Shown: piece by piece, positions 16,723 to 47,500 of the stretch
Numbering within the stretch: the first letter of the stretch is position 1
Layout: the number at the start of each line of letters is the position of its first letter
Assembly: GCA_003202005.1 (NCBI GenBank)
Contig: QJJF01000002.1
Coordinates: 1 to 64,000 of the forward strand
DNA from: Williamsia faeni
GTDB taxonomy: Bacteria > Actinomycetota > Actinomycetes > Mycobacteriales > Mycobacteriaceae
Direction: 5' to 3'
DNA: 64,000 bases
Program-made: the position numbers and the translations under genes
The notes under the pieces: model-generated
What the model saw: the letters and a program-made list of their open reading frames with translations, nothing else
Told to the model about the DNA's origin: nothing
The model's database searches: none

Positions 16723-16732
16723 TGCGGGTCTG

Positions 16733-17326
16733 TCATCGGACGTGATCTCCCAGCGACGGCGGCACGATGGTGACGCCGGCATTGCTCATCTCGGCGACCG
16801 CGGCATCGGTGGTGTCGATGCCGACACCTGCGCAGTAACCGAGCAGGACGCGGGTGGTGAACCCGGCGGCGACGGCATCGAGGGCGGTGGCACGGACGCA
16901 GTGATCGGTCGCGAGCCCGACCACATCGACGGCGTTGATCTCACGGTCACGGAGCCAGTCGCCGAGCATCACGTCATTGCTGTCGGCGCCCTCGAAGCCC
17001 GAGTATGCCGCGCTGTACTTGCCCTTCGAGAACGTCGCATCGGCGATGGACGCATCGAACCGGGGATGGAAATCCATACCTGGTGTGCCCTCGACGCAAT
17101 GTCTGGGCCAGCTGTCGACGTAGTCGGGGTTGTCGGAGAAGTGATCTCCTGGGTCGATGTGGTGGTCGCGGGTCGCGGCGACCGCCCGGTAGCCGTGATC
17201 TCGCTGGGTGTAGAGCGTGATCGCGGCTGCGACGTCGCTGCCTCCGGACACCGCCAGCGAGCCCCCCTCGCAGAAGTCGTTCTGCACGTCGACGATCAGC
17301 AATGCAGTTCGAATATGTTCGCTCAC
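16733..17326 (-). CDS. pncA: Nicotinamidase
   Basis: This 197-residue isochorismatase-fold enzyme deamidates nicotinamide to nicotinate for NAD salvage. The catalytic triad is D13, K101 and C143 (TDHCVRA), and the metal ligands are D54, H56, H62 and H76. The spacing matches M. tuberculosis PncA with an offset of five. The start is GTG 17326 directly before SEHIRTALLIVD. The nicotinate phosphoribosyltransferase gene lies just upstream on the same strand, so two consecutive salvage steps are paired. The same family activates pyrazinamide. Confidence 0.95.
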   Translation of the reverse strand: MSEHIRTALLIVDVQNDFCEGGSLAVSGGSDVAAAITLYTQRDHGYRAVAATRDHHIDPGDHFSDNPDYVDSWPRHCVEGTPGMDFHPRFDASIADATFSKGKYSAAYSGFEGADSNDVMLGDWLRDREINAVDVVGLATDHCVRATALDAVAAGFTTRVLLGYCAGVGIDTTDAAVAEMSNAGVTIVPPSLGDHVR

Positions 17327-28401: not shown

Positions 28402-30192
28402 CTACTTGGTGTAAAGACCCTCGATATCAGTGTTGTGTGAATCGTGGATCACGTTGCGCTTGAGTTTGAGCGTGGGAGTGAGCTCGCCCGACTCGATGGT
28501 GAAGTCGGTGTCGATGATGCGGTACTTCTTGATCGCTTCGGCCTTGGACACCAGAGCGTTCGCCGCGGCGATGGCGTCGTCGATGTCGGCGCGTATTTTC
28601 TCGTTGTCCAGCAGATCTGAGATCGGCGTGTCCGCGGGGAGTTCGTGGCGATGTAGCCAACCCGGCAGTGCCTCGGGATCCAGGGTGATCAGGGCGGCGA
28701 TGTACGGCTTGTTGTCGCCGACGACCAGAGCCTGGCTGACCAGCGGATGGGCGCGGACGGCATCTTCCATCTGGGCCGGCGAGACGTTCTTGCCGCCGGC
28801 GGTGACGATCAGTTCCTTCTTGCGTCCGGTGATGGAGAGGTATCCGTCGTCGAGGGTGCCGATGTCGCCGGTGTGGAACCAGCCGTCCTTGATCGCTTCG
28901 CTGGTGGCCTGTTCGTTCTTCCAATAGCCCCCGAAGACCACCGGTCCCTTGAGCAGGACCTCGCCGTCGTCGGCGATGGCCACCGACTGGCCGTGGACGG
29001 GGCGGCCGACGGTTCCGATGCGTTGTGCGCCTTCGGCATTGACGGTGACGGCCGCGGTGGTCTCGCTCAGTCCGTAACCCTCGAAAATCGGGACACCGAC
29101 GCCGCGGAAGAAGTGGCCGAGGCGGGCGCCCAGGGCTGCACCGCCGGAGACGGCGCTGTCGCAATTACCTCCGAGTGCGGCGCGGAGCTTCGAGTAGACG
29201 AGGACGTCAAAGATCTTGTGCTTGACCTTGAGGACCAATCCGGGTCCGCCGGATTCCAGGGCCTTCGAGTAGGCGATGGCGGTTTCGGTCGCGGCGGCGA
29301 AAATCTTGCCCTTGCCGCCGTCTTCGGCCTTCTGCTCGGCGCTGTTGTAGACCTTTTCGAACACGCGGGGGACCGACAGCAGGTAGCTGGGCTTGAACGC
29401 GGCCAGGTCGTCCATCAGCGTGGGGGTCACCGTGGTGTGGCCGAGCTGAACGAGATGCACGATCGACGCCACCGAGATGACTCGCGCGAAAATGTGCGCC
29501 AGTGGGAGGAACAGCAGCGTGGAGCTGCCTTCGGACATCAGATCACCGAGGGTGACACGGACGGCGTGGCATTCGTGCATGAAGTTGGCGTGGGTCAGTG
29601 CCACACCTTTGGGCTTACCGGTGGTGCCGGAGGTGTACACCAGCGTCGCGATGTCGGACGCCAGGGTGTTCGCGTGACGCTGTTCGAGTTCGTCGTCGCC
29701 GATCCCCTCGCCTCGCTTGACCAGTTCCTCGATCGCTCCCTCCTCGATGACCAGCGTCTCTTTGAGTTCGGTGGCGTCGGCCAGTGAAGGCGAGTGCTGC
29801 GCCTTCTGATTGGCGTTTTCGACAACCAGCAGCGATGTGCCGGAGTTCTCGACGATGTACTGGACCTGCGACGACGACGAGGTCTCATAGATGGCGACGG
29901 TGGTGCCGCCGGCCCGCCAGACGGCGTAGTCGACGACCGTCCACTCATAGCGGGTGGCCGAGAGGATGGAGACCCGGTCGCCCGGTCCGATGCCCGAGGC
30001 GATGAAACCCTTGGCGACCTTGTCGACGAGATCGGCGAACTCTTTGGTGGTCACGTCGTACCAGGAGCCGTCCGCTGCACGGCGCTTGAACAATGCTTTT
30101 GTAGGTGACTCCGAGCGGTGCTTCAGCATCGAATCGACGATCGATGCCTTCTCCGGAACAACGAAGTCCGAGGGGACGGTGATCTCTTGCAC
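28402..30192 (-). CDS. Long-chain fatty-acid-CoA ligase (FadD15-like)
   Basis: This 596-residue AMP-forming acyl-CoA synthetase activates fatty acids through an acyl-adenylate. Motifs in order are the P-loop-like YTSGTTGKPKG, the GYGLSETTA substrate-site motif, the TGDIG hinge and the C-terminal ELTPTLKLKR. Its length and sequence resemble FadD15-type ligases of mycobacteria. It is divergent from the RNA helicase gene, with about 190 bases between starts. Confidence 0.93.
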   Translation of the reverse strand: MQEITVPSDFVVPEKASIVDSMLKHRSESPTKALFKRRAADGSWYDVTTKEFADLVDKVAKGFIASGIGPGDRVSILSATRYEWTVVDYAVWRAGGTTVAIYETSSSSQVQYIVENSGTSLLVVENANQKAQHSPSLADATELKETLVIEEGAIEELVKRGEGIGDDELEQRHANTLASDIATLVYTSGTTGKPKGVALTHANFMHECHAVRVTLGDLMSEGSSTLLFLPLAHIFARVISVASIVHLVQLGHTTVTPTLMDDLAAFKPSYLLSVPRVFEKVYNSAEQKAEDGGKGKIFAAATETAIAYSKALESGGPGLVLKVKHKIFDVLVYSKLRAALGGNCDSAVSGGAALGARLGHFFRGVGVPIFEGYGLSETTAAVTVNAEGAQRIGTVGRPVHGQSVAIADDGEVLLKGPVVFGGYWKNEQATSEAIKDGWFHTGDIGTLDDGYLSITGRKKELIVTAGGKNVSPAQMEDAVRAHPLVSQALVVGDNKPYIAALITLDPEALPGWLHRHELPADTPISDLLDNEKIRADIDDAIAAANALVSKAEAIKKYRIIDTDFTIESGELTPTLKLKRNVIHDSHNTDIEGLYTK

Positions 30193-30379: not shown

Positions 30380-32137
30380 ATGACAGACAGTATTGGTGCG
30401 GTCCCCACGAGTGATATGGCCGCCGAAAATGAAGAAACCGTGACCTTTGCAGACCTCGGGATGGATCCCCGTGTGTTGCAAGCACTCACGGATGTGGGTT
30501 ATGAAACCCCTTCGCCGATCCAGGCAGCGACAATTCCGCCGCTCCTCGACGGCCGGGATGTGGTCGGTCTTGCACAGACCGGTACAGGTAAGACCGCCGC
30601 CTTCGCGGTACCGATTCTTTCGGGCATCGATCCGAGCGCTCGAAAGCCCAAAGCGCTGATCCTCGCACCGACTCGTGAGCTCGCATTGCAGGTCGCCGAA
30701 GCCTTCGGGCGTTACTCGGTTCACCTCCCCGGTGTGAAGGTCCTGCCGATCTACGGTGGCCAGAGCTACACCGTCCAGCTGTCCGGTCTGCGCCGCGGCG
30801 CCCAGATCATCGTGGGCACACCCGGTCGCGTGATCGATCACCTCGACAAGGGCACCCTCGACATCTCCGAGCTCGACTACCTCGTCCTCGACGAGGCGGA
30901 CGAGATGCTCAACATGGGCTTCGCAGAAGACGTCGAGCGGATTCTGCGCGACACCCCGGAGAGCAAGCAGGTCGCTCTGTTCTCGGCCACCATGCCGAAG
31001 ACCATCGGACGGTTGTCGCAGCGGTACCTCAAGAATCCGGTCGAGGTCACCATGAAGGCCAAGACCGCGACCGCGTCCAACATCACGCAGAAGTACTTGC
31101 AGGTATCGCACCAGCGCAAGCTCGATGCGTTGACGCGCGTGCTCGAAGTCGAGTCGTTCGACGCGATGATCGTCTTCGTCCGTACCAAGCAGGCCACCGA
31201 GGACCTTGCCGAGCGTTTGCGTTCGCGTGGCTTCTCGGCGGCAGCGATCAACGGTGACATCGCCCAGGCGCAGCGTGAGCGGACGATCGCTCAGCTGAAG
31301 AACGGTCAGGTCGACATCCTGGTCGCCACCGATGTTGCTGCCCGCGGACTCGATGTCGAGCGGATCTCGCATGTCCTCAACTACGACATCCCGCACGACA
31401 CCGAGGCCTATGTGCACCGCATCGGACGTACCGGCCGCGCCGGTCGTTCGGGCAATGCGCTGCTCTTCGTGTCGCCGCGCGAGCGTCACCTGCTCCGGGC
31501 GATCGAGAAGGCCACCCGGCAGCCGCTCGACGAGATCGGCCTGCCCAGTGTCGATGACGTCAACGCGCAGCGTGTGGCGAAGTTCGGCGAGTCGATCACC
31601 AGCAACCTGGGATCGGACAACCTCGACCTCTTCCGCAAGCTGATCGAGGACTACGCCAGCGAGAACGACGTCACGATGGCCGACATCGCGGCCGCCCTGG
31701 CGCTCGAAACGCGTGACGGCGGATTCCTGCTGTCGCCCGATCCGCCGGCAAGCGAACGCAAAGACCGTGACCGCAAGGAACGCACTGAGCGTTCCGGGCG
31801 CGGTGACGGAGATTTCGCGACCTACCGCCTTGCTGTGGGACGTCAGAACAACGTCACGCCGGGTGCAATCGTGGGCGCAATCGCCAACGAGGGCGGCCTG
31901 TCCCGTGGAGACTTCGGTCACATCAGCATTCGGGCCGACCATTCCCTGGTCGAGCTGCCTCGCAACCTCGACCGCGAAACGTTGTCGCGGTTGCGCAGCA
32001 CCCGAATTGCCGGTGTTCCCATCGGGATCAAGAAGGATGAGGGATCTCCGCGCGGTCGCTCGCAGGGTTACGGCAACAAGTCATACGGCCGCGATCGACG
32101 CGGTACGCAGAAGGTAGCGGGTCGAGGCCGACCCTAG
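30380..32137 (+). CDS. deaD: DEAD-box ATP-dependent RNA helicase
   Basis: This 585-residue RNA helicase of the DeaD/CsdA type probably acts in ribosome assembly and RNA turnover. It has the Q motif (YETPSPIQ), AQTGTGKT, PTRELALQV, DEAD (VLDEADEML), SAT and HRIGRTGRAGR. A C-terminal DbpA-type RNA-binding domain (TYRLAVGRQNNVTPGAIVG) is followed by a basic Gly/Arg tail. The start ATG 30380 is inside a normal N-terminus. It stands alone. Confidence 0.95.
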   Translation: MTDSIGAVPTSDMAAENEETVTFADLGMDPRVLQALTDVGYETPSPIQAATIPPLLDGRDVVGLAQTGTGKTAAFAVPILSGIDPSARKPKALILAPTRELALQVAEAFGRYSVHLPGVKVLPIYGGQSYTVQLSGLRRGAQIIVGTPGRVIDHLDKGTLDISELDYLVLDEADEMLNMGFAEDVERILRDTPESKQVALFSATMPKTIGRLSQRYLKNPVEVTMKAKTATASNITQKYLQVSHQRKLDALTRVLEVESFDAMIVFVRTKQATEDLAERLRSRGFSAAAINGDIAQAQRERTIAQLKNGQVDILVATDVAARGLDVERISHVLNYDIPHDTEAYVHRIGRTGRAGRSGNALLFVSPRERHLLRAIEKATRQPLDEIGLPSVDDVNAQRVAKFGESITSNLGSDNLDLFRKLIEDYASENDVTMADIAAALALETRDGGFLLSPDPPASERKDRDRKERTERSGRGDGDFATYRLAVGRQNNVTPGAIVGAIANEGGLSRGDFGHISIRADHSLVELPRNLDRETLSRLRSTRIAGVPIGIKKDEGSPRGRSQGYGNKSYGRDRRGTQKVAGRGRP

Positions 32138-32301
32138 ATAGTCCCTGTTCGAGGCTGTTCCTTATTGCCAAACCACGTCCGTGTTCGGGCCACGTTCGTT
32201 AATGTGAAACATTCCCGTAACAATGCGGGTCTGCGACGCGACCTAACGAGTGGCGCACGTGCTTTTTGAGCAACACGAAGGTTTGAGCAGTAGGAATGGT
32301 G

Positions 32302-32646
32302 ATGAGTCCAGTGGCGACGGCGGATCCGATCTCGGCGGCAGAAGCCGCCGAGCATCGCGATCGCGGAACGGCGATAGTGGTCGACATGCGACCACAGGTG
32401 GTACGGCATCAGGGCAGTTTGCCCGGAGCCGTGGTGGTCGAACCCGGTGAGTTGCACGATGCATTCGAACCGGGGTCGAGCCGCCGAATCGCTGCGATCG
32501 ACGGTCTCGACACCGAGATCGACGTCGTGTCGGTGAAGTCACAGGCGGCCCGGATCGCCGAGAAGATCGCCGCCATGGGATATACCAACGTGCATTACGT
32601 TGTCGGCGGGTATCGCGCGTTGCGCACCGCCATCGGACACAAGTGA
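32302..32646 (+). CDS. Rhodanese-like domain protein lacking the active-site cysteine
   Basis: This 114-residue single rhodanese domain has IVVDMRPQVVRHQGSLPGAV as the N-terminal half and GYTNVHYVVGGYRAL at the C-terminus. The position normally held by the sulfur-carrying Cys reads VVSVKSQAAR, with Ser, so sulfurtransferase activity is unlikely. I chose ATG 32302, six bases after AGGA; ATG 32296 also exists but overlaps that site. The helicase-nuclease gene follows after 115 bases on the same strand. Confidence 0.75.
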   Translation: MSPVATADPISAAEAAEHRDRGTAIVVDMRPQVVRHQGSLPGAVVVEPGELHDAFEPGSSRRIAAIDGLDTEIDVVSVKSQAARIAEKIAAMGYTNVHYVVGGYRALRTAIGHK

Positions 32647-32761
32647 CAACAGGGCCCTCAACTGGGCCGTCAACCAGCCACGCGGTGTGAACCGAGGCGC
32701 TTCAGCGGGTAGCGTTCAGGGTGGCAAAGAGTGTCAACCTGAGGCTTAACTCGAGGACGTG

Positions 32762-35700
32762 ATGACCGATTCGGTGTCCGGCGACGACCGGCGTGGCAGA
32801 GTTCTGCGTTTGTTGCAGTTCCTGCATGAACTGATCCGCGCAAAATCGTCAGTCATTCGTGATGTCGACGACCATGCCGGCGTGGTGTGGCTCGGCGACA
32901 GCTATGACATTCCGATGAATCGCGATGCCGCCGTCGGCCAGGTGATCACCGAGCTGTCGCGCGACAATCCTGCGCAGAACACCGGGTATGACCTTCTCGC
33001 CCAGGCGATCGACGAATTGGCCGAGCGCCCCGAGTCGCTGGAACTGGTCCTCGCGTCGGGACTGCTGACATACGGCGACCCCGTGCTGGTCCGAGAGCAT
33101 CTCGTGACACAGCCCGTTCTTGCCCTGCACGACCACACTGCGGGAACCATCACGGTCAAGCTGGCCGGTGGTTCGCAACCAGAGCTGCATGCCGGACATC
33201 TGCTGACCGGTTTCGACGGGTTCGATCTCTCCGCCTCGGCAGAGGTGGCCGGTCAATTGGCCACCACGCGTTCGCCGGTCGCGGATTCCATCGAGAAGTT
33301 TTTCACCAAATGGCGCCGCGCGGTCGCCGATGATCCGGCGTCGGTGAAAGTCGACCTGGAGCCGGCGCTGGTGCTCCGGCGCCGCGGTTCGGCCCCGCTC
33401 CTGGATTATTACGAGTCGATGATCGCCGCCCTTCGGGACGAGTCGAACGAGATCCCGGTCGGTCTGGCCCAATTGGTCGAACCGGTGGAGGCCGAGGAAA
33501 GGATCCAGCGCCTGCGCGAGAGCGGCGCCATGTCGGCCGAAGAGCTCATCGAGGACGCGCTGTATCCGTTGCCGTCCAACGTCGAGCAGCGTGACATCCT
33601 GGCCCAGCTCGGTCTCGACAGCGGCGTTGTGGTCGAGGGGCCTCCCGGAACCGGTAAGACGCACACCATCGCCAACCTGATGACCGCTCTGCTGGCCAAA
33701 GGGCAGCGGGTGCTGGTTGTTTCGGAAAAGGCGCAGGCCCTGCATGTCCTGCGTGACAAACTGCCCGTCGAAGTTCAGCAGCTCGCGGTATCGATCACCG
33801 ACGTCACCAAAGACGGGTCGCAGTCACTGATCGACAGCGTGGAGGCGATTGCCAATCGCAAGGGGAGTTTCCAGTCGCGGGTGGCGACCAGTGAGATCAA
33901 GAACCTGAGGTCCAAGCGTGACCAGGCCCGTTCCAAACGGGAGCAGATCCTGCGCGAGATCTGGCAGCTTCGCGAATCCGAGACAGAAAAGCACGAGTGG
34001 GTTGCCGCCGGCTACAGCGGCACCGCCGCCGGAATCGTCCGGCAGTGCAATGACGTTGCTGCACAGTATGAATGGCTTCCGGGGCCGCTACACAGTGCGC
34101 TGCCGCCGCTGGAGTCCGAAGAGTTCGATCGGCTTCTCGAACTCCTGGGTCGACGTACCGAGCGCTGGTCGAGCCGGCTCGGCCAGCATCTGCCCGACCT
34201 CGACGTGGTGTTGCCGGGGACGATGGAACTCGAAACCATCTGCAGCCGGGTACGTAATCGCCCCGTCGAAGAGATGGTCGGCAGCGGGTCGCTGCTCGCG
34301 ATCCTCGCCGATGTCGACAGCGCCCGTTTGCTCAGGGTCAAGGCACGGTGTGATCGGCTCGGTGCCGCGGTGCGTGAAGTCCGTACGTTCCCACCACATC
34401 TGCAGCAGATGGCCGACCGTTTGCTCTCGGGTGAGGCGTCATACCTGTGGAATCGGGTGACGGCATTGTCGGGTGTGATCGACGACGCCACCGAACGCGA
34501 CACCCGGATCGGCACGCACACCATCGAAGGTGGTGGCGCCGCGCCCGGCGATCTGGTGCTCTACGAGAAGGCCGCCGAGTACCTCGAGTCCGGTGGCCAG
34601 TGGCGGGGCCGTTTCCGAAAAGCTCCACAGCAGAAGGCCGTCGAAGATCTCGGCGCCACGTTCACCGTGGACGGCCGTGAACCGTCGGATGCGGCGTCGC
34701 TGCGCCTGGTCGCCGATCATCTCGGTGTGCTCGACGCGGTCGCGCGTGTGCAGGCGATCCTGGCCGAGGTCAACGTCCCGATGGATACTTCCGGGGCGCG
34801 TTCGGTGCAGCTCGGCCGGTTGGTTCGTCTCGACGGACAGCTCGCCTGGGTATCCGAATTGCTCACCGGCCGTGATCAGTTGGTTCGTGAACTCAATGCG
34901 ATCAGTCCTGGCGGTCCACGGCCGAAGAGCATCGACGAGGTCGAAGAGGTTGCCCGGCAGGCCGGTGCGATCGCCGCGGCCAACGACGGTGTGCTGGCCC
35001 GACGCGAGCTCGACGATGTCGCCCGCGCACTGTCGGCCGAGGTCGAGAAAGGTCCGTCGCCGGAAGGGGACGCGCTCCTGGCCGCGGTGCGGGCAGCCGA
35101 CGCAGATGGGGTGCTCGAAGCACGTCGGGCCTGGTACACCGCCCGTGGAGAACTCGAAAACCAGGGTGCCCTCGATCTTTTGGAATTGCGTCTGAAGCAG
35201 AAGGCCCCCGCGCTGGTGAAGCTTCTGGTCGAGACGTCTGATGACCCGGTGTGGGAAGACCGGCTCGCCGACCTCGATGCCGCCTGGTCGTGGCGCCGCG
35301 CCTACCAGTGGGCCCAAGAGCGCAGCGATCCCACCCGCGAGACCCGTCTCGAAGCCGACCTCGACGAGGTCGAGGCGGACATCACACACTTCACGGCCAG
35401 GTTGGCTGCCGCGTGTGCCTGGCGAGAGTGCCTGGAGCACATGACCGTCAGCCAGGTGCAGGCGCTGCAGTCGTACCGCGACCACATCACCAACATCGGG
35501 AAGGGTTCGGGCAAACATGCCGAGCGCTTCCGGCTGGCGGCCCGGTCGGCGATGGCACAGGCCCAGACGGCGGTTCCGGCATGGATCATGCCGATCGCCC
35601 AGGTTCTCAGTTCGGTTGCGCCTGCGCAGAGCTCGTTTGACGTGGTCATCGTCGACGAGGCCAGCCAGGCCGACATCTCGAGTCTGTTCCTGCTGTGGCT

Positions 35701-36925
35701 CGCGCCGCGCGTCATTGTCGTCGGCGACGATCGTCAGTGTGCACCAGGTGGTTTCGGCGGATCGGGGATGGAAGAGGTGTTTGCCAAGCTCGACACCTAT
35801 TTGCCCGACATCCCGCAATACATGCGTGACAGCCTCACTCCGCGTTCGAGTCTGTTCTCGATGCTTCGGACGAGGTTCGGTCATGTGGTGCGATTGCGCG
35901 AACACTTCCGGTCGATGCCCGAGATCATCGAGTTCTCGAGCCGGCAGTTCTATCCGGATTCACCGCTGGTCCCGGTCCGCCAGTTCGGTGCCGACCGGTT
36001 GCCGCCGCTGCGGACGCACCACGTCGAGGACGCCCGCAGTACCGGATCGAACTCGTCGCTGGTCAACGTGGACGAGGCAAATGCGCTGGTGCGTCTGCTG
36101 ACCGAGTGCGCGGACGACCCACGCTACGACGGCATGTCCTTCGGCGTCGTGGTCCTGCAGGGGCAGCGTCAGGTGGATCTGGTCACCCAGTTGTTGCGGG
36201 AAGCGATCGACCCGCAGAGGTGGCGTGACCGCAGCCTCCGGGTCGGCACACCGCCCGACTTCCAGGGCGACGAACGGCACGTGGTGTTCCTGTCGATGGT
36301 GGTCTGCCCCGACACCAACGTGAATGCTTTGACCCGCAGCGAATCTCAGCGGCGCATCAACGTCGCGGCATCACGCGCGATGGAACAGTTGTGGCTCGTC
36401 CACTCCGTTCAACCCGACGATCTCAAAGAGAACGATCTGCGCTATTCGCTGCTGACGTACTTGCAGAAGACCGAAGGTGCGCTGGTGGATCCGATCCCGA
36501 CGGGCGTGACCCCGACTGCACGCACCGAACCGTTCGATTCACTTTTCGAGCAGCAGATCTTCGTCGACCTGGTCGACCGTGGGTTCTATGTGAATCCAAA
36601 AGTGGTGGTGAACAACCGGATTGTGGATCTGGTCGTCACCGGAAGTGATGCCCGGCTGGCCGTCGAGTGCGACGGCGACGAGTTCACCAGCACGCCCGAA
36701 CAGGCCCGCGCGGACATGGAGCGCGAGCGTGAACTCCGCCGATGCGGCTGGCGCTTCTGGCGGGTCCGGGAATCGGAATACCTGCTGAATCCGGGGCACG
36801 CACTAGATGGGCTCTGGGACGAACTCGAAAAGCGTGGTGTGCGGCCTGATTCGGTGGGGCCCGACCTTGCGGGCGGTCCGGTCGAGGATCCCTGGGAACC
36901 GTTGACCCTGACCCACGGCGACTAG
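32762..36925 (+). CDS. Giant SF1 helicase fused to a Vsr/DUF559-like nuclease
   Basis: This 1387-residue protein has an unassigned N-terminal region at 1-270, then Walker A at 293-300 (GPPGTGKT). About 660 residues, helical and coiled-coil-like, come before Walker B DEAS at 965-968. GDDRQCAPGG follows at about 983, and late helicase motifs lie near 1160-1180 (FQGDERHVVFLS) and 1197-1212 (RINVAASRA). The C-terminus has a PD-(D/E)xK nuclease of Vsr/DUF559 style with D1289 (RIVDLV) and E1302 (AVECDGDE). DNA or RNA unwinding plus cleavage is expected. Similar helicase-Vsr fusions occur in antiviral defence. ATG 32762 sits five bases after GAGG. Confidence 0.85.
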   Translation: MTDSVSGDDRRGRVLRLLQFLHELIRAKSSVIRDVDDHAGVVWLGDSYDIPMNRDAAVGQVITELSRDNPAQNTGYDLLAQAIDELAERPESLELVLASGLLTYGDPVLVREHLVTQPVLALHDHTAGTITVKLAGGSQPELHAGHLLTGFDGFDLSASAEVAGQLATTRSPVADSIEKFFTKWRRAVADDPASVKVDLEPALVLRRRGSAPLLDYYESMIAALRDESNEIPVGLAQLVEPVEAEERIQRLRESGAMSAEELIEDALYPLPSNVEQRDILAQLGLDSGVVVEGPPGTGKTHTIANLMTALLAKGQRVLVVSEKAQALHVLRDKLPVEVQQLAVSITDVTKDGSQSLIDSVEAIANRKGSFQSRVATSEIKNLRSKRDQARSKREQILREIWQLRESETEKHEWVAAGYSGTAAGIVRQCNDVAAQYEWLPGPLHSALPPLESEEFDRLLELLGRRTERWSSRLGQHLPDLDVVLPGTMELETICSRVRNRPVEEMVGSGSLLAILADVDSARLLRVKARCDRLGAAVREVRTFPPHLQQMADRLLSGEASYLWNRVTALSGVIDDATERDTRIGTHTIEGGGAAPGDLVLYEKAAEYLESGGQWRGRFRKAPQQKAVEDLGATFTVDGREPSDAASLRLVADHLGVLDAVARVQAILAEVNVPMDTSGARSVQLGRLVRLDGQLAWVSELLTGRDQLVRELNAISPGGPRPKSIDEVEEVARQAGAIAAANDGVLARRELDDVARALSAEVEKGPSPEGDALLAAVRAADADGVLEARRAWYTARGELENQGALDLLELRLKQKAPALVKLLVETSDDPVWEDRLADLDAAWSWRRAYQWAQERSDPTRETRLEADLDEVEADITHFTARLAAACAWRECLEHMTVSQVQALQSYRDHITNIGKGSGKHAERFRLAARSAMAQAQTAVPAWIMPIAQVLSSVAPAQSSFDVVIVDEASQADISSLFLLWLAPRVIVVGDDRQCAPGGFGGSGMEEVFAKLDTYLPDIPQYMRDSLTPRSSLFSMLRTRFGHVVRLREHFRSMPEIIEFSSRQFYPDSPLVPVRQFGADRLPPLRTHHVEDARSTGSNSSLVNVDEANALVRLLTECADDPRYDGMSFGVVVLQGQRQVDLVTQLLREAIDPQRWRDRSLRVGTPPDFQGDERHVVFLSMVVCPDTNVNALTRSESQRRINVAASRAMEQLWLVHSVQPDDLKENDLRYSLLTYLQKTEGALVDPIPTGVTPTARTEPFDSLFEQQIFVDLVDRGFYVNPKVVVNNRIVDLVVTGSDARLAVECDGDEFTSTPEQARADMERERELRRCGWRFWRVRESEYLLNPGHALDGLWDELEKRGVRPDSVGPDLAGGPVEDPWEPLTLTHGD

Positions 36926-36928
36926 CAT

Positions 36929-37699
36929 TCAGCCCGCCGGCGGGACTTCCTGCAGCAATGCGGGGAGCCCGACGGCTGCGGTGGTCTGCATGAAGTGGGT
37001 CACCAACGAGCTCAAAGGTGTTGGCTCCGGGTTGATCTCGATCACCGGGATGCCTGCGGCGAGAGCCCTCTCGGGCAATGATGCGGCCGGGTAGACGATG
37101 CCCGACGTACCGACGACGATCAGCAGGTCGCATCCGGCGGCGGCGTCGGCAGCACGTTCCCAGGCGTCGGAGGGGAGTGGTTCACCGAACCACACCACAC
37201 CGGGGCGCACCTCTGACAGACACCGGGGACACGACGGTGGTTGGACGCGGAGCGTCTCGGTGGCGACCTCGGGGTCGGCGTCGATGCCGGAATAGGGCAG
37301 ATCGCAGTGGGAGCATCTCGGTTCGAACAAACTGCCGTGCAGATGCGCGGTGACCGCGCTACCGGCGCGCTCATGGAGATCGTCGACGTTCTGTGTCACC
37401 ACCATGACGGTCCGGCGGTCGGCCCACTCGGCGAGCGCCACATGGCCGGGATTGGGTGTGGTCGAACGGACCAATTTGGCCCGCCACTGGTACCAGGCCC
37501 ACACCATCGCCGAGTCCCGGGACCACGCCTGCGGTGTGGCCAGTTCTGCCGGGTCGAAGCGTTCCCAGAGTCCGGTCTCGGCGTCCCGGAAGGTCGGCAC
37601 ATTGCTCTCGGCGGACATTCCGGCGCCGGAGCAGACCGTCACCCAGGCGGCGCCTCGCACCAGGTCTGCGATGGCCGGGTCGAGTGTGGTGTCGGTCAT
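36929..37699 (-). CDS. cobB: Sirtuin, NAD-dependent deacylase (class III type)
   Basis: This 256-residue sirtuin uses NAD to remove acyl groups from lysines. It has GAGMSAESNVPTFR, QNVDDLHERAG, HLHGS and two zinc-binding CxxC pairs (CSHC, CPRC). Y70-x-x-R73 (YQWR) matches the pair that recognises succinyl or malonyl groups in class III sirtuins, so desuccinylation is likely. The ATG at 37699 overlaps the HIT-gene stop by four bases. It converges on the helicase-nuclease gene with 3 bases between stops. Confidence 0.93.
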   Translation of the reverse strand: MTDTTLDPAIADLVRGAAWVTVCSGAGMSAESNVPTFRDAETGLWERFDPAELATPQAWSRDSAMVWAWYQWRAKLVRSTTPNPGHVALAEWADRRTVMVVTQNVDDLHERAGSAVTAHLHGSLFEPRCSHCDLPYSGIDADPEVATETLRVQPPSCPRCLSEVRPGVVWFGEPLPSDAWERAADAAAGCDLLIVVGTSGIVYPAASLPERALAAGIPVIEINPEPTPLSSLVTHFMQTTAAVGLPALLQEVPPAG

Positions 37700-38124
37700 C
37701 GGCGAGGACCCTCCAGTTGGGCACGCAGGATCGCGGCGGTTGCGGGCATGTCGTTGTCGCGTCTGGTCAGCAGGCCCCGTGCGAGGGTCAGTTTGTCGCC
37801 GTGGTGACGCGGCACCACGTGCAGGTGTGAATGGAAGACCGATTGGAATGCTGCACGCCCGTCGTTGACCAATAGGTTCACGCCGTCGGCTGCGATCGAC
37901 GATGCGCGCAATGCGGCCGCGATGGATTGGCCCGCCACGAAGAGTTTGCCGCCCAGTTCCGGGCTCAATTCGGCGAGGTCGGCGGCATGCTTCTTCGGGA
38001 TGAGCAGGGTGTGGCCGGGACGAACGGGGCGGATGTCGAGGAACCCCAGGATGTCGGTGTCTTCGTAGACGATGTGGGCCGGCGACGAGCCGTCGGCGAT
38101 GGCACAGAAAATGCACTCCGTCAT
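37696..38124 (-). CDS. HIT-family nucleotide hydrolase/transferase
   Basis: This 142-residue histidine-triad protein has H98-S-H100-L-H102 (HSHLHVVPR). N-terminal C4 and C7 with H46 suggest a bound zinc, as in bacterial HinT-like proteins. Likely substrates are adenosine phosphoramidates or dinucleotides. It is the first gene of a two-gene operon with the sirtuin, whose start overlaps its stop. Confidence 0.92.
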   Translation of the reverse strand: MTECIFCAIADGSSPAHIVYEDTDILGFLDIRPVRPGHTLLIPKKHAADLAELSPELGGKLFVAGQSIAAALRASSIAADGVNLLVNDGRAAFQSVFHSHLHVVPRHHGDKLTLARGLLTRRDNDMPATAAILRAQLEGPRR

Positions 38125-38560: not shown

Positions 38561-41500
38561 GTGACCATTCACCAGTTTCGCGCAGGAGCAGAAGAGAACT
38601 CAGCCTGGGCCCCGCGCCCAGATGGATCGTTGATCGACCGGCTTCGCGAGGGTGAGTCCTATGCAGTCAGCTTCGGGGGACAGGGTGGCCCGTGGCTGCC
38701 CGTGCTCGCCGAATTGGTGATCGACGCAGATCTCGACCGCAGCACCACCAAGATCGTCGAAGCCGCCGAACGACTCATCGAGCCGGTGGCCGATCAGCTC
38801 TCGGCCGCGCGCCCCGATGGCTTCCATCCCCTGAGCTGGGTGCACGCCTACAACAGCGAAGAGGTCTTGCCGACCGACTCGGCACTCGTTGCCGCCCCGG
38901 TCTCCGTGCCGGGCATCTTGCTGGCGCAGCTCGCCGCGATCAGCGCGAACCGCAAGCAGGGACTCGACCTCGGCGCGTTGCCGCCGGTTGCCGCCGTGGG
39001 TCACTCGCAGGGCGTATTGGCCGCCGAGGCCATCAGGTCCGCATCTGAGGATGGTGGGCTCGGAGACGGCGCGCTCCTCGCGGTTGCGCATCTCATCGGT
39101 GCTGCCGGAGCGTTGATCGCCCGCCGCCGCGGACTGACCGTGGACGCCTCGGGCAGCCCGATGCTTTCGGTCACCCAGGTCGATCCCGCCCGCATCCAGG
39201 TGCTTGTCGACGAATACGCCCAGGGACTCGGGGAGTCCGACCGGGTGTCGGCACCTGTTGTCTCGATCATCAACGGCCGTCGCTCGGTCGTGCTCTCCGG
39301 CGCTCCGCGTCACCTGGCCGCGTTCATCAGCCAGTGCGAGACGGTTGCTGCCGCGGAGGCCGCCGACCGCAAGAAGAAGGTCACCGGCGGCTCGCCGTTC
39401 GCGCCGGTCTTCGATCCACTGTCCGTGTCGATCGCGTTCCACCATCCTTCACTCGAAGCCGCGTGCGATCTTGTTGCCGATTGGGCGCGAGCCTGCGACA
39501 TCGACCAGGTTGCTGCCCGTCGGCTGGCCGCAGCCGTCCTCGTCGATCAGGTCCAGTGGGTTGATGCCCTCGACGACGTGATCAACGCCGGCGCGAAGTG
39601 GATCCTCGACCTCGGTCCCGGCGACGTCGCCACCCGTCTGAGTGTTCCCGTCGTCCGCGGACAGGGCATCGGACTCATCTCCGTCAGCCAGCGCGGCGGA
39701 CAGCGCAACCTGTTCGCACCCGGCGGCATCCCTGATGTCCAGATCCCGTGGAGCAGCTACCGCCCCCGCATCGTGTCGCTTCCCGATGGCCGTCAGGTTG
39801 TCGAGACCGCGTTCACCCGCCTGACCGGTCGCTCGCCGATGCTGCTGGCCGGTATGACCCCGACAACGGTTGATCCCGCGATCGTCGCCGCTGCCGCCAA
39901 TGCCGGCCACTGGGCCGAGCTGGCCGGTGGCGGACAGGTGACCGAGGCGATCTTCGCCGAGAACATCGCGAAGCTGACCGACTTGCTCGAGCCGGGCCGC
40001 CAGGCACAGTTCAACACCCTGTTCCTCGATCCGTACCTCTGGAAGCTGCAGATCGGCGGCAAGCGCCTGGTGCAGAAGGCCCGCGCGAACGGCGCCCCGA
40101 TCGACGGTGTCATCGTGTCGGCCGGTATCCCCGAGCTCGACGAGGCCGTTGCGCTCGTCTCTGAGCTCGCCGACGCGCAGATCCCGTACATCGCCTTCAA
40201 GCCCGGCACGATCGGACAGATCCGTTCGGTGATCCGCATCGCCGCCGAGGTCCCGCACTACCCCGTGATCGTGCAAATCGAGGGTGGCCGCGCGGGTGGA
40301 CACCACTCGTGGGAAGACCTCGACGCGCTGCTGCTGGCCACCTACGGCGAGCTGCGCGCCCGTCAGAACGTCGTCATCTGTGTCGGTGGTGGCATCGGCA
40401 CCGCCGAGCGTGCCAGCGAATACCTGACCGGTGTCTGGTCGGCGGCCCACGACTACCCGCTGATGCCGCTCGACGGCATCCTGGTCGGCACCGCCGCGAT
40501 GGCCGCCAAAGAGGCGACCACCTCGCCGGCCGTCAAGGAACTGCTGGTCAACACCCCCGGGTGTGACGAGTGGATCGGTGCCGGTTACGCCGCTGCCGGA
40601 ATGGCATCGGGCCGAAGCCAATTGGGCGCCGACATTCACGAGATCGACAATGCCGCCTCGCGTTGTGGCCGTCTGCTCGACGACGTCGCCGGTGACGAAG
40701 AGGCTGTTGCCGAGCGTCGCGACGAGATCATCGAAGCCCTGTCCGGTACGGCCAAGCCGTACTTCGGTGACGTCGCTCAGATGACCTATCAGCAGTGGCT
40801 CGAGCGCTACATCGACCTCGCCGTCGGTGAGGCCACCGGTGACAAGACCTGGGTCGACATCACCTGGCGCCAGCGCTTCGTCGAGATGCTGCAGCGCGCC
40901 GAGGCCCGGCTGAACGACGCCGACCGCGGCCAGATCACCACCCTCTTCGGACACGACTCGGCCACCGACAACGCCGGTGCCGCCGTCGATGCACTGATCG
41001 CGGTCTACCCGTCGGCCGGCACCGATGTATTGCATCCCGCCGACCTGGTGTTCTTCCTCGAGCTGTGCCGGACGCCGGGCAAGCCGGTCAACTTCGTGCC
41101 CGTCATCGACAAGGACGTGCGCCGCTGGTGGCGCAGTGACTCGCTGTGGCAGGCCCATGACGCTCGCTACGGCGCCGACGAGGTCTGCATCATCCCCGGA
41201 CCCGTTGCGGTTGCCGGTATCACCCGCGTTGACGAGCCGGTGGGCGAACTGCTCGACCGTTTCGAGGCGCAGGTCGTCACCGACCTCGCCGGTGTCGGTG
41301 AGCAGGCGCAGCCTATCAGCGCTCGCCTGCGGGCCGGACTGGTCGATGTCGACGGAGTCCTCGGCAGCGTCATCGAAGCTCTGAACGTCCAGTGGTCCGG
41401 CCGGCTGGTCGCCAATCCGATTGCGCTGCTGGGCGATCGCGATGCCTGGGAGTTCCCGTCGGACGAGCGCGGTGAGCACGAGCCCACCGGTGCCGTTCTC

Positions 41501-44500
41501 GAGCGCACCGAAGACGGCGTCGTCCTGAATGTGCCGATCGGAAAGTCGACCGTCTCGATCCCGATGATCGTCGACAACTCGATCTTCGACGGTGGTGCCC
41601 CGAAGGTGACCATTGATGCGGCTGCCGGTGCGATGCGCCAGATCCTCACCGTCGCCGCCGGAGGATCGCTCACCGCTGTGTCCGACCGGACCGCGACCTG
41701 CACGGCGACCTGGGACCCGGAAGCGGTTGCCGATCACGCCGCCGTGACCGCGTACACGCTGCCCGAACACCTCAGCGCCTCACTGCCGCAGGGTGTGAGC
41801 GGCTTCGCCAACCCCGACACCCTCGTCGGACTCTGCTGGCCGACCGTGTTCAGCGTGATCGGAGCGGCCACCACCGACGACGGTGCACCCGTTGTCGAGG
41901 GCCTCCTCGATCTGGTCCACCTCGACCACGTGGCATCGACCGTGGGACAACTGCCCCGCGTCAAGGCCGAGTTCACCGTCACCGCAACCCTTTCGGATGT
42001 CACCGACACCGACATGGGCCGCGTGATCACCATCGCGGTGGCCATCACCGACGGATCCGTCGTGATCGCCGAGATGACAGAGCGTTTCGCCGTGCGTGGC
42101 CGCACCGGCGCCGGCGAACTGTCCGATCCGGCCCGCGCCGGTGGTGCCCTGAGCGCCGCAGCCGGTGACGCAACCCGGAAGAAGTTGCGGGAAGCCAAGT
42201 TCGCAACCCCGTCGCGGATGCACGGCTTCGCGTTGGTGTCGGGTGACCACAACCCGATCCACGTCAACGATTCGGCCGCGAAGATGGCCGGACTCGGAAG
42301 CCCGATCGTGCACGGCATGTGGCTGTCGGCCGCTGCGCAGCACGTCGCCACCGCCACCGACGCCAAGAACCCGATCCCGGTTCCGCGTGCACTGCAGGGC
42401 TGGACCGCCCGCTTCCTCGGCATGGTCCGTCCCGGCGATGAGGTGACGATTCGCGTCGACCGCGTCGGCATGGATGCCGGCCGCGACATCATCGAGGTCA
42501 GCTGCAAGGTGGGTGACCTGCTGGTCATGAACGCCACCGGACTGCTGGCCCCGCCGAAGACCGTCTACGCCTTCCCGGGTCAGGGCATCCAGAGCAAGGG
42601 CATGGGTCTCGACGCCCGGGCCCGCTCCAAGGCCGCTCGCAAGATCTGGGACCGCGCCGACAAGCACACCCGTGACGCACTGGGCTTCTCGATCCTGGCC
42701 GTGGTCCGCGACAACCCGACCACGTTGTCGGCAGGTGGCACCACCTACCAGCATCCCGATGGCGTCCTGTTCCTGACGCAGTTCACCCAGGTCGCCATGG
42801 CGACTCTCGGTGTTGCGCAGATCGCCGAGCTGAAAGAGTCCGGAGCCTTCGTCGAAGGTGCGATCACCTGTGGCCACTCGGTCGGCGAGTACAACGCGCT
42901 GGCTGCCTGCGCCGGTGTTCTCCCGCTCGAGGCAGTCCTCGAGGTCGTCTTCCAGCGCGGCGAGGCCATGCACCATCTCGTTCCGCGAGATGCCAAGGGC
43001 CGCAGCGACTACCAGATGGCGGCCATCCGGCCCAGCCAGTTCGGTCTGGCCGACGAGGACGTCATTCCTTTCGTCAACGAGATCGGTGAGCGCAGCGGCG
43101 AGTTCGTCGAGGTCGTGAACCTCAACCTGCTCGGTTCGCAGTACGCCATCGCCGGCACCGTGAAGGGTCTCGAAGCACTCGAGGCCGAGATCGAGATCCG
43201 CCGCGCGAAGACCGGTGGCAAGCGCTCGTTCATCGTCGTTCCCGGCATCGACGTGCCGTTCCACTCGACAGTGCTGCGCGCCGGTGTGCCGGACTTCCGG
43301 ACCCGCTTGCAGGATCTGCTGCCCGAGCACATCGATCCCGACATCCTCGTCGGACGCTACGTGCCCAACCTGGTGCCGCGGATGTTCAACCTGGGCCGCG
43401 ACTTCGTCCAGGAGATCGCGGACCTGGTTCCGTCGGATCCGCTGAACGAGGTTCTGGCCGACTGGGATTCGTGGAGCACCAAGCCCGGCGAGCTGACCCG
43501 CGTGATCCTGGTGGAGCTGCTGGCATGGCAGTTCGCCAGCCCGGTCCGGTGGATCGAGACCCAGGATCTGCTGTTCACCCCCGCCGAGCGCGGCGGAGTC
43601 GGCGTCGAACGCTTCATCGAGGTCGGCGTGAAGTCGGCACCGACACTGAGCGGCCTGGCCGGCAACACACTCAAGCTCGACGACTATCAGCAGGCCACCG
43701 TCCAGGTGCTCAACATCGAGCGCGACTCCGATGCGATCCTGTCCAAGGACTCCGCACCCGAGGTGGACGAGGACGACGACGTCACCGAGGCACCGGCGGA
43801 CTCCGGTGCACCGGCCGAAGCTGCAGCGCCGGCCGCAGCCGCTCCGGCTCCTGTTGCCGCCCCGGCAGATTCAGGTCCGCGTCCGGACGACATCTCGTTC
43901 GGCCCGGCCGACGCCGTCAATTCGGTGATCGCACTGTGGACCAAGATCCGCGTCGATCAGATCGGATCGGCGGACACGATCGAGGCGCTGTGTGACGGTG
44001 TCTCCTCGCGTCGTAACCAGCTGCTCCTCGACATCGGCGGCGAACTCGGACTGGGTGCGATCGACGGTGCCGCAGAGGCGGAGATGCCGGCGCTGGCATC
44101 GACCGTGAACGCACTGGCCCGCGGCTACAAGCCACTGGGTTCGGTCCTCTCCGACGCGGTGGGCGATCAGATCCGTAAGGTCTTCGGCCCGGCGGGCAAG
44201 CGCTCGTCGTACATCGAAGACCGCGTCACCTCGGTGTGGCAGCTCGGCTCCGGCTGGGCGACGCACACCACGGTTGCGGTGGCACTCGGCAGCCGCGACG
44301 GCGTGAGCGTGCGCGGCGGCGATCTCGGTGACCTGATCTCGACGCCTCCGGCCAACGCCGAAGCCGTCGACGCACTGATCGACGCAGCGGTCGCCAAGGT
44401 CGGTGCCATCAAGGGCATCGCCGTGTCGAAGCCGGCCGTCGGTGGCGGTGGTGGCGGAGGCATGGTCGACGCTGCGGCACTGGGCGAGCTGACCGAACAG

Positions 44501-47500
44501 TTCACCGGGCGTAGCGGGGCCCTGGCCTCGGCTGCAAAGACCATCCTGGAGAAGCTCGGTCTGGCCGATGAGGTTTCGGCCGCCGAGCCCGTCGAGGACA
44601 ACACCGCCGCGCTCGAACGTGTCAGCGCCGAACTGGGTTCGGACTGGCTGCGGGTCGTGACCCCGGCCTTCGACGAGCGCCGCGCGGTCCTGATCGACGA
44701 TCGCTGGGCCACCTCCCGTGAGGATCTGGCGCGACTGTGGATCGAAGACGAGCACGTCCTCGACCAGGACTTCTACGACATCGCGGCACGTTTCGTCGGT
44801 GCCGGCGAGACGGTCTGCCACCAGGCCACCTGGTGGCAGGGCAAGGCATTGGCCAACGGCTACCAGGAGCATTCGCGCCTGTACGGCCAGATTGCCCATG
44901 CCGCACAGGATCCGAAGCCCGCGTCCTACTCGGATGACATCGCGGTCGTGACCGGCGCCAGCAAGGGTTCGATCGCCGCAGCGGTCGTCGAACAGCTGCT
45001 GGCCGACGGCGCAACCGTTGTCGCCACGACATCGCGTCTCGACGACAACCGGATGGCGTTCTTCAAGTCGCTGTACCGCCGCAGTGCCCGCGGAAACGCT
45101 GCACTCTGGGTGGTTCCGGCCAACCTGTCGTCGTACACCGACGTCGACGAGCTCGTCTCGTGGATCGGTAGCGAGCAGACCGAAAACCTCGGTGGCAAAA
45201 CAGGTGTGGTGAAGCCGGCCCTCAAGCCGACGTTGCTGTTCCCGTTTGCCGCACCCCGCGTTGCCGGTGATCTCACCGATGCCGGTGGTCGCGCCGAGCT
45301 CGAGATGAAGGTGCTGCTGTGGTCGGTGGAGCGCTTGATCGCCGGACTCGGTGACATCGCTGCCGACCACCACCTGGCCGCACGCCTGCACGTGGTGCTG
45401 CCCGGTTCCCCGAACCGCGGAATGTTCGGTGGCGACGGTGCCTACGGCGAGTCCAAGGCTGCACTCGACGCGCTCGTGAAGCGTTGGGGCGCCGAGGATT
45501 CGTGGAACTCGAAGGTCACGCTGGCTCACGCTCTGATCGGCTGGGTCTCCGGAACTGGTCTGATGGGCCACAACGACGGACTCGTCGCGGCCGTGGAGGC
45601 CGCCGGTGTCAAGACGTGGTCGACACCCGAGATGGCCACCGAACTGCTCAAGGCCGTCACCCCCGCGGCACGACTGCAGGCACGCACCGAACCGTTGCAG
45701 CTCGACCTGACCGGTGGACTCGGCGATGCCAAGCTCGACATGAAGGCACTGGCTCAGGCACAGGCCGACGCGGCTGCCGCAACCGAGGACGACACCGAGG
45801 ACGACGAGCCGACAGTGGCGGCTCTGCCGTCGCCGGCCCGCGCCCCCGAGTCGACCACCCCGGCATGGGGCAACATCGACGCCCGCCCCGAGGATCTCGT
45901 GGTGATCGTCGGCGCCGGAGAGCTCGGACCGTACGGCAGCAGCCGGACCCGCTTCGAGATGGAGGTCGCAGAAGAACTCTCGGCCGCCGGTGTGCTCGAG
46001 CTGGCCTGGAGCACCGGGCTCATCACCTGGGAGGCAACACCGAAGCCGGGTTGGTACGACGCCGAATCGGGTGATCCGGTGGCGGAAGCGGAGATCGCGG
46101 ATCGCTACCACGACACCGTGGTCGAGCGCTGCGGCATCCGCCGGTACGTCGACGACGGCGACATGATCGACAACGCGTCGCCACTGCTCACCTCGGTGTT
46201 CCTGGACAACGACCTCACCTTCTCGGTGGCGTCGGAAGCCGAGGCACGGTCGTTCCTGTCCGCCGCACCCGACAAGACCAAGATCAAGGTCGACGCCGAG
46301 AGCGGCGAATGGCAGGTGACCCGCATGTCGGGCACCGAGATCCGCGTCCCGCGCAAGTTCAAGCTGAGCCGGACCGTGGGCGGTCAGATCCCCACCGGAT
46401 TCGATCCCACTCGCTGGGGTGTCTCCGCGGACATGACCGAGTCCATCGACCGGGTTGCACTGTGGAACCTGATCGCCACCGTGGATGCCTTCCTGGCCTC
46501 CGGATTCGAGCCGTCGGAACTGATGCGCTGGGTCCACCCGGGTCTGGTCGCCAACACCCAGGGCACCGGCATGGGCGGCATGACGTCGATGCGGTCGCTG
46601 TACCTGGACACCTTCACCGGTGAGGCCAAGGCCAACGACATCCTGCAGGAAGCTCTCCCGAATGTGGTTGCGGCCCACGTGGTCCAGTCCTACATCGGTA
46701 GCTACGGCGCGATGATCCATCCGGTCGCCGCCTGTGCCACCGCCGCCGTTTCGGTGGAGGAGGGTGTCGACAAGATCAAGCTCGGCAAGGCGCTGTTCGC
46801 AGTCGCCGGTGGTTTCGATGACCTCGGTATCGAGGGCATCGTCGGATTCGGTGACATGTCGGCCACCGCGGAGTCCGGGAAGATGGCAGCGCAGGGCATC
46901 AACGAGCGCCGCTACTCCCGCGCCAACGACCGTCGTCGTGGCGGATTCGTGGAGTCCCAGGGTGGCGGCACGATCCTGCTCGCCCGCGGCGATGTCGCGG
47001 CCGAGATGGGCCTGCCGGTCCTCGGTGTTGTCGGTTGGGCACAGAGCTTCGGCGACGGTGTCCACACCTCGATCCCCGCTCCGGGCATCGGCGCACTGGG
47101 TGCGGCTCGCGGACAGAAGGATTCGGGCTTCGCCCGGTCGTTGCGCCAGCTGGGTGTGAGCCCGGACGACGTGGCACTGGTCTCGAAGCACGACACCTCG
47201 ACCAAGGCCAACGATCCCAACGAGGCGAACCTGCACGAGCGTCTCGCCGCGGCGATCGGCCGCAGCGAAGGTGCACCGCTCTTCGTGGTGTCGCAGAAGT
47301 CGCTGACCGGACACGCCAAGGGTGGTGCGGCAGCCTTCCAGCTGATCGGCCTGTGCCAGATGTTGCGCGACGGCGTCATCCCGCCGAACCGCAGCCTGGA
47401 CTGTGTCGATGAGGCCATGGAGGAGTACAAGCACCTCGTCTGGCCGACCAAGCCGCTGCACTTCGGCGACCGGTTCGCACTCAAGGCGGGTCTGCTGACC

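Follow-up and report, generated by a model that had tools for sequence, protein, structure and literature searches.

Proteins in which a superfamily 1 (SF1) helicase is followed by a Vsr-like nuclease have been described under several names. The MTES_1575 nuclease was named in 2013, and the excerpt of that paper (PMC3710099) describes the proteins that carry it as an SF1 helicase followed by this nuclease. The type III-B CnuH proteins of CoCoNuT systems, as excerpted from PMC11090510, consist of a UPF1-like helicase with a large helical insertion after Walker A and a directly fused Vsr-like nuclease; the authors predict, in the same excerpt, that CoCoNuT systems target RNA. A third name, PDC-S37, designates a phage defence candidate in PADLOC, and our literature search found no paper with that name. 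Here, we describe a helicase-nuclease gene of this kind in a 64,000-nucleotide stretch of Williamsia faeni DNA (contig QJJF01000002.1, positions 1 to 64,000; "the window"), located near fas, the gene for type I fatty acid synthase (FAS). Our best reading of the sequence is that the gene probably encodes a helicase-nuclease for nucleic-acid surveillance that is fixed in the chromosome, is dispensable, and comes from a defence-related family. The literature search returned no paper whose title or abstract describes the fas-locus branch of these proteins.

The gene (positions 32762-36925, forward strand) translates in frame into 1387 residues and a stop. The frame is open, with no stops, in all nine genomes of the genus (86-87% identity in the other eight), and the ratio of nonsynonymous to synonymous differences (pN/pS) against two relatives is about 0.15, indicating that this is a real gene. 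The original prediction, made from the window alone, described a 1387-residue gene with Walker A, Walker B (DEAS) and late SF1 motifs and the nuclease residues D1289 and E1302, all of which lie where it put them; the late motifs are GDER (residues 1169-1172) and VAASRA (residues 1201-1206). Pfam matches AAA_11/AAA_30 at residues 273-402 and AAA_12 at residues 1029-1214 (E 5e-18). Walker A and Walker B are 664 residues apart, in line with the proposed insert of about 660 residues. At the C terminus, REase_MTES_1575 (PF18741) matches residues 1262-1355 (E 4.4e-25) with 88 bits, above its gathering cut-off of 38.2, and DUF559 matches residues 1274-1355 (E 4e-5), as expected for the Vsr/DUF559-like nuclease originally proposed. 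This domain has the D...ECD signature of PF18741 and lacks the motif His.

Residues 1-240 are covered by none of the best 25 of 29 Pfam families. We rejected a DUF4011 or HEPN N terminus, the former being the mark of the Hhe/DUF4011 helicases: both are absent from the best 25 of the 29 families for the window protein (limit E 1; last E 0.08), from the best 25 of 31 families for 20 homologues, and from the complete Pfam listings for 5 homologues. Within that scope, the earlier observation that the protein has no recognizable DUF4011 holds.

Two AlphaFold models, made from window and related-locus sequences, cover residues 1-480 and 188-1387. The model of residues 188-1387 has a mean predicted local distance difference test (pLDDT) score of 81 and shows a RecA core with an insert of mostly long helices. 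Its C-terminal part is modelled as alpha-beta-beta-beta-alpha-beta, an order of strands and helices that fits a predicted PD-(D/E)xK nuclease. Profile and model thus agree on the nuclease fold, the absence of which had been named as a reason to abandon the prediction. A Foldseek search with this model ranks senataxin, Sen1, Upf1 and Dna2 first and gives 79 matches with E<=0.001; the template modeling (TM) score by query is about 0.2 because the insert makes up half of the model. Together with the SF1 motifs, these nearest folds identify the protein as a predicted UPF1/SEN1/DNA2-like SF1 helicase. NCBIfam TIGR00376 (IGHMBP2-type) also matches at E 3e-21, but with 75 bits against a cut-off of 349. 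The model of residues 1-480 (pLDDT 72, averaging about 89 over residues about 31-220) has no PDB match under E 0.001. Its best PDB match, Upf1, is weak (E 6.6e-3, TM 0.2, in an oligonucleotide-binding (OB)-fold/stalk comparison), and a single AAA protein of viral origin also matches (E 1e-7), perhaps via the RecA part.

The order of parts places the protein among systems already named. It shares the SF1 helicase and the nuclease with MTES_1575-type proteins, whereas the HEPN, transglutaminase and two winged-helix domains that the excerpt of PMC3710099 gives for MTES_1575 itself were not found. It shares the UPF1-like helicase, the large insertion and the direct fusion with type III-B CnuH, but the N-terminal Sul7-like winged helix reported in the excerpt of PMC11090510 is not shown in the window protein, and no CnuB/CnuC (McrB/McrC) gene, expected beside a type III-B CnuH, is present among the window frames scanned. 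In PADLOC, PDC-S37 matches best (E 3.2e-53), spanning the second helicase half and the nuclease; this profile is 1550 positions long, has no curated cut-off, and aligns in two stretches, the best of which covers profile positions 903-1340 only. The fas-locus branch differs from PDC-S37 in being chromosomally fixed. Hhe (NF042953) and ProA (NF058533) share the RecA2-nuclease end, but the window protein scores 123 bits against a cut-off of 2000 and 163 bits against a cut-off of 1500, respectively. A new kind of defence system is ruled out, since the family already has these names (MTES_1575, PDC-S37 and CoCoNuT III-B CnuH). The "undescribed defence protein" originally proposed is therefore not undescribed, while its role in defence may hold. 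The protein is a sedentary form of an already known kind, and what is new is the evolution of the fas-locus branch. A precedent for a large core gene is the DUF4011 gene flanking cDHS1 in Pseudomonas aeruginosa, present in every isolate according to the excerpt of PMC10250203, but that gene encodes a DUF4011 protein and lies at the edge of a defence hotspot.

The helicase-nuclease gene is part of a conserved block and is fixed at one chromosomal site near fas, which corrects its earlier placement between two such blocks. It is present in 9 of 9 genomes of the genus (the window's included), in 8 of 8 genomes of a second Williamsia group (71-73% identity), and in 16 of 16 genomes of the Tsukamurella group (g51, so called because one stretch matches a named record at 100%), one of which, of 83% completeness, has it in two pieces. 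All eight other genus genomes carry it in the same place; the original prediction had held that such a position in every close relative, with no defence context, would speak against it, and this is largely what we find. The gene follows the same DeaD gene in all loci read and precedes FAS in nearly all of them.

Outside the genus, presence becomes patchy in one group, a 59-species sister genus (g9) that is probably Gordonia. There, 33 of the 59 species carry the gene (2 of them with a split frame) and 26 do not; one of the sites without it is cut by a contig end, and the 25 readable sites are empty, keeping DeaD and FAS without the helicase-nuclease gene. Since flanks are intact at all 25, the gene is not essential. 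At three non-carrier sites, 105-125 bases separate the ends of the rhodanese and SIR2 matches, and some sites contain flanking genes only; at L058 and L155, frames judged by eye resemble a TetR regulator and a membrane protein, with an AAA protein also at L155. Split fas-locus frames occur in L110 and L111 (two sister-genus genomes) and G239:C1 (Tsukamurella group), through either decay or assembly error.

The fas-locus copies group as one clade (37 rows, support 100) in a quickly built tree of 63 rows; this support is to be read with care because some branches are long. A tree of three flanking proteins, which included 21 of the 26 non-carrier sites and 15 of the 33 carrier sites, distributes the 21 non-carriers over three sister-genus clades. 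We infer that losses are favored, since the site is identical and FAS and helicase-nuclease have diverged to a similar degree. The single-genome locus L035 is a long branch and is placed differently in the gene tree and the flank tree. The fas-locus copies are under purifying selection: pN/pS is 0.15 for the helicase-nuclease gene, compared with 0.16-0.17 (start of FAS), 0.17-0.19 (FadD), 0.09-0.10 (DeaD) and 0.24-0.32 (rhodanese). We rejected a mobile or hotspot insertion at the fas site, as the site is the same in 9 of 9 genus genomes, no defence system adjoins it among the flanking frames scanned, and presence is patchy only in the sister genus. The combination by which a mobile anti-phage gene would be recognized, patchy presence with defence-gene neighbors, is not seen at the fas locus.

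Residues K299, D965, E966, R1205, D1289, C1303 and D1304 are present in all 36 homologues of a broad alignment (A1), and E1302 is present in 34, all but L037 and the fas-locus copy L035. Among 28 fas-locus copies aligned separately (A3), K299, D965, E966, R1205, D1289, E1302 and D1304 are invariant. Both nuclease residues singled out by the original prediction, D1289 and E1302, are thus conserved to this extent. The window protein has Thr1309 where 14 of 21 other homologues in A1 have His after ECDGD, a residue that is common, not universal, among homologues. We take this His to be the equivalent of the Vsr active-site His. The split copies L110 and L111 were excluded from A1, A3 and the gene tree; L035 was included in A1 and not in A3; L120, L124, L127, L130 and L132 were in the gene tree and not in A1; and the partial L038 (35%) was in no alignment.

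Homologues elsewhere have a different context. A homologue at E<=1e-60 is present in 154 of 401 family genomes, many of these being a longer second type of about 1500-2000 residues, by first start, which lies away from the fas site in 21 of 21 loci fetched. Most second-type homologues (L117-L134, L034, L036 and L037) continue past the nuclease at the C terminus, in some cases by several hundred residues; these extensions have no common Pfam family among the matches listed, and 1 of 20 members matches MarR/winged-helix models. PF18741 matches 20 of 20 homologues searched with Pfam, and PDC-S37 matches all 20 members of a second homologue set (19 other homologues and one fas-locus copy). We scanned 84 of 120 picked frames flanking 21 second-type loci, about 4 per locus, and these match 113 PADLOC families at 1e-10, one match being PDC-S37 itself; the best 25 of the 113 comprise, among others, restriction proteins of types IV and I, specificity subunits of type I systems, ZacB and Mza. 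As a control, 84 frames flanking 21 fas-locus copies match 17 families, 16 of which are helicase kinds that the DeaD neighbor matches or would match, in 20 frames at most; the control is not wholly empty because a ThsC-labelled HIT model matches 10 frames. Its rule differed slightly (frames of 100 instead of 120 residues, with frames >2000 dropped, which removes fas). In both scans, frames were picked by codon-position composition, so that some are perhaps not genes, and matches were not assigned to single frames. The description of the window protein as a stand-alone protein is supported, and the neighboring frames scanned contain no defence gene apart from general matches to helicase-type and HIT models.

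Plasmids provide further examples. Matches occur in 450 plasmid records, of which we read 6 neighborhoods. On an Acinetobacter johnsonii plasmid the homologue directly follows annotated BREX genes, and on a Sphingobium plasmid it follows a methyltransferase and a restriction gene. It lies 6.5 kb from type I M and S genes on a Fusobacteria plasmid and 2 kb from TIGR02678-80 genes, presumably Wadjet-like, on a Streptomyces chartreusis plasmid; a second Streptomyces plasmid locus has no annotated restriction or BREX gene. The sixth neighborhood is the fas locus in Tsukamurella: L135 (NZ_LR134452.1, 289606-309739), labelled "plasmid 10" of Tsukamurella tyrosinosolvens, is probably a chromosomal piece, because a 4.9-Mb contig (L116) contains 19.5 kb of it at 100% identity. 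Among 50,697 phage records there were 4 weak matches, and a viral contig scan gave 19 loci.

Architecture and kin point to a defence-related surveillance enzyme, while the locus, its inheritance and its context speak for a settled role in the chromosome. We give a probability of about 0.5 to resident immunity against phages or plasmids, provided by a helicase-nuclease of a defence-related family that has settled in the chromosome. A defence role is possible because some family members have restriction-modification or BREX genes next to them and the sister genus can do without the gene. Several observations weigh against it. The gene is universal in the genus and apparently vertically inherited, which is unusual for a defence gene; its pN/pS resembles that of fas; and the presence pattern costs a minimum of 2 changes (a loss and a regain) or 3 losses, the latter counted by eye. 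No defence system lies beside it at the fas locus among the neighboring frames scanned, where the HIT neighbor matches the ThsC-labelled model in 10 of 84 flanking frames, and three of the plasmid loci read have a looser connection to defence genes or none. None of the 28 fas-locus copies aligned in A3 has His at position 1309, and with L035 lacking E1302 the nuclease activity of the branch is not assured. Our literature search found no experiment on any close member.

Much of this would suit domestication to a housekeeping task, in which a bacterial translocase of the UPF1/SEN1 type removes RNA, R-loops or stalled complexes and its nuclease is retuned or reduced. Its presence throughout the genus, the second Williamsia group and the Tsukamurella group, its constant position after an RNA helicase gene in the loci read with no defence system adjoining, its fas-like pN/pS, the missing His, and the eukaryotic RNA/DNA surveillance helicases among the nearest solved folds all fit such a role. 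We hold it to be possible and no firmer than that, as 26 of 59 sister-genus species do without the gene, with flanks intact at the 25 readable sites, the DeaD gene persists where the helicase-nuclease is absent, and the invariance of D1289, E1302 and D1304 in 28 of 28 copies argues for use of the nuclease. A combined history, in which a defence helicase-nuclease was domesticated into the core genome of one actinobacterial group as a UPF1-like quality-control factor, with the nuclease retuned by loss of the motif His and some later species discarding the gene, strikes us as rather doubtful. A DNA2-like or Vsr-like DNA repair enzyme particular to these actinobacteria is unlikely: Dna2 is among the structural matches and the nuclease is of a Vsr-type family, but the sole repair-helicase kind in 20 window frames scanned (14620-16782, Helicase_C_2) is non-adjacent, about 16 kb upstream, no methyltransferase gene appears among those 20 frames scanned with Pfam, and some homologues sit in restriction-modification or BREX surroundings. 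Least probable is a stand-alone CnuH-like protein working with McrB/McrC proteins encoded elsewhere in the genome; the order of parts matches the excerpted type III-B CnuH (PMC11090510), but the window frames scanned hold no McrB/McrC-like gene, and no genome-wide partner search was made.

The features of the locus are collected in Table 1. The 395-residue frame at 36929-38116 is over-extended, as the HIT gene overlaps the likely SIR2 start (about 37702). Williamsia-type loci have the order FadD, DeaD, rhodanese, helicase-nuclease, FAS. Rhodanese was not found in the Tsukamurella-group and Jongsikchunia loci read, the latter being L032 and L055. SIR2 lies between the helicase-nuclease and FAS in the window's own genus and has no match there in the other groups of Williamsia-type loci; the one-genome genus g7 (L035) has the same gene order without SIR2. 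The sister genus shows FadD-DeaD-rhodanese-gene-FAS in 33 of 33 carriers (15 + 18 loci), all but one with a SIR2 match. Among the 5 of 16 Tsukamurella-group loci read for synteny, all have FadD-DeaD-gene and 3 have SIR2-FAS beyond; the L115 contig ends soon after the helicase-nuclease gene, and L113 has neither SIR2 nor FAS in the 7 kb read downstream. Contigs also end after the helicase-nuclease in L033/L056, where the same species has its SIR2-FAS pair on a different contig, close to the end (L074), and inside FAS in L025 and L043. L042 (NZ_JNYV01000001.1), titled Kitasatospora arboriphila NRRL B-24581, has a Williamsia-type locus at 87% identity; its organism label is doubtful.

Table 1. 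Features of the helicase-nuclease locus, in window coordinates
Feature	Position	Strand	Remarks
AMP-binding enzyme (FadD-like)	28402..30192	-	conserved neighbor
DeaD-type RNA helicase with DbpA domain	30380..32137	+	conserved neighbor
Rhodanese domain protein	32296..32646	+	115 bp upstream of helicase-nuclease gene
Helicase-nuclease gene, 1387 aa	32762..36925	+	alternative start GTG at 32759
N-terminal region, residues 1-270	32762..33571	+	helices and strands in model
Walker A GPPGTGKT, residues 293-300	33638..33661	+	K299 in 36/36 aligned homologues
Helical insertion between Walker A and Walker B, about residues 351-930	33812..35551	+	
Walker B DEAS, residues 965-968	35654..35665	+	
Second RecA-like domain (AAA_12), residues 1029-1214	35846..36403	+	Pfam
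Predicted PD-(D/E)xK nuclease MTES_1575, residues 1262-1355	36545..36826	+	D1289, E1302, C1303, D1304, Thr1309
SIR2 family protein	36929..37702	-	convergent, 3 bp past helicase-nuclease stop
HIT-domain protein	37696..38124	-	overlaps SIR2 start
Type I fatty acid synthase (FAS)	38561..47791	+	conserved neighbor

If the protein acts in resident immunity, its N-terminal domain and RecA core would load on single-stranded or branched nucleic acid, and ATP would drive translocation of the helicase. The helical insert may form a stalk for self-assembly or for a partner, and the tethered nuclease would cut substrates that hold the motor. The immune purpose, the target, the oligomer and this order of action are what we infer. 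The locus offers a natural experiment on the route by which a member of a defence-related enzyme family comes to be permanently encoded in the chromosome. Because dozens of species have the gene at this site and others, within one genus, have the site empty, function may be readable by comparing matched species for phage sensitivity and nucleic-acid metabolism.

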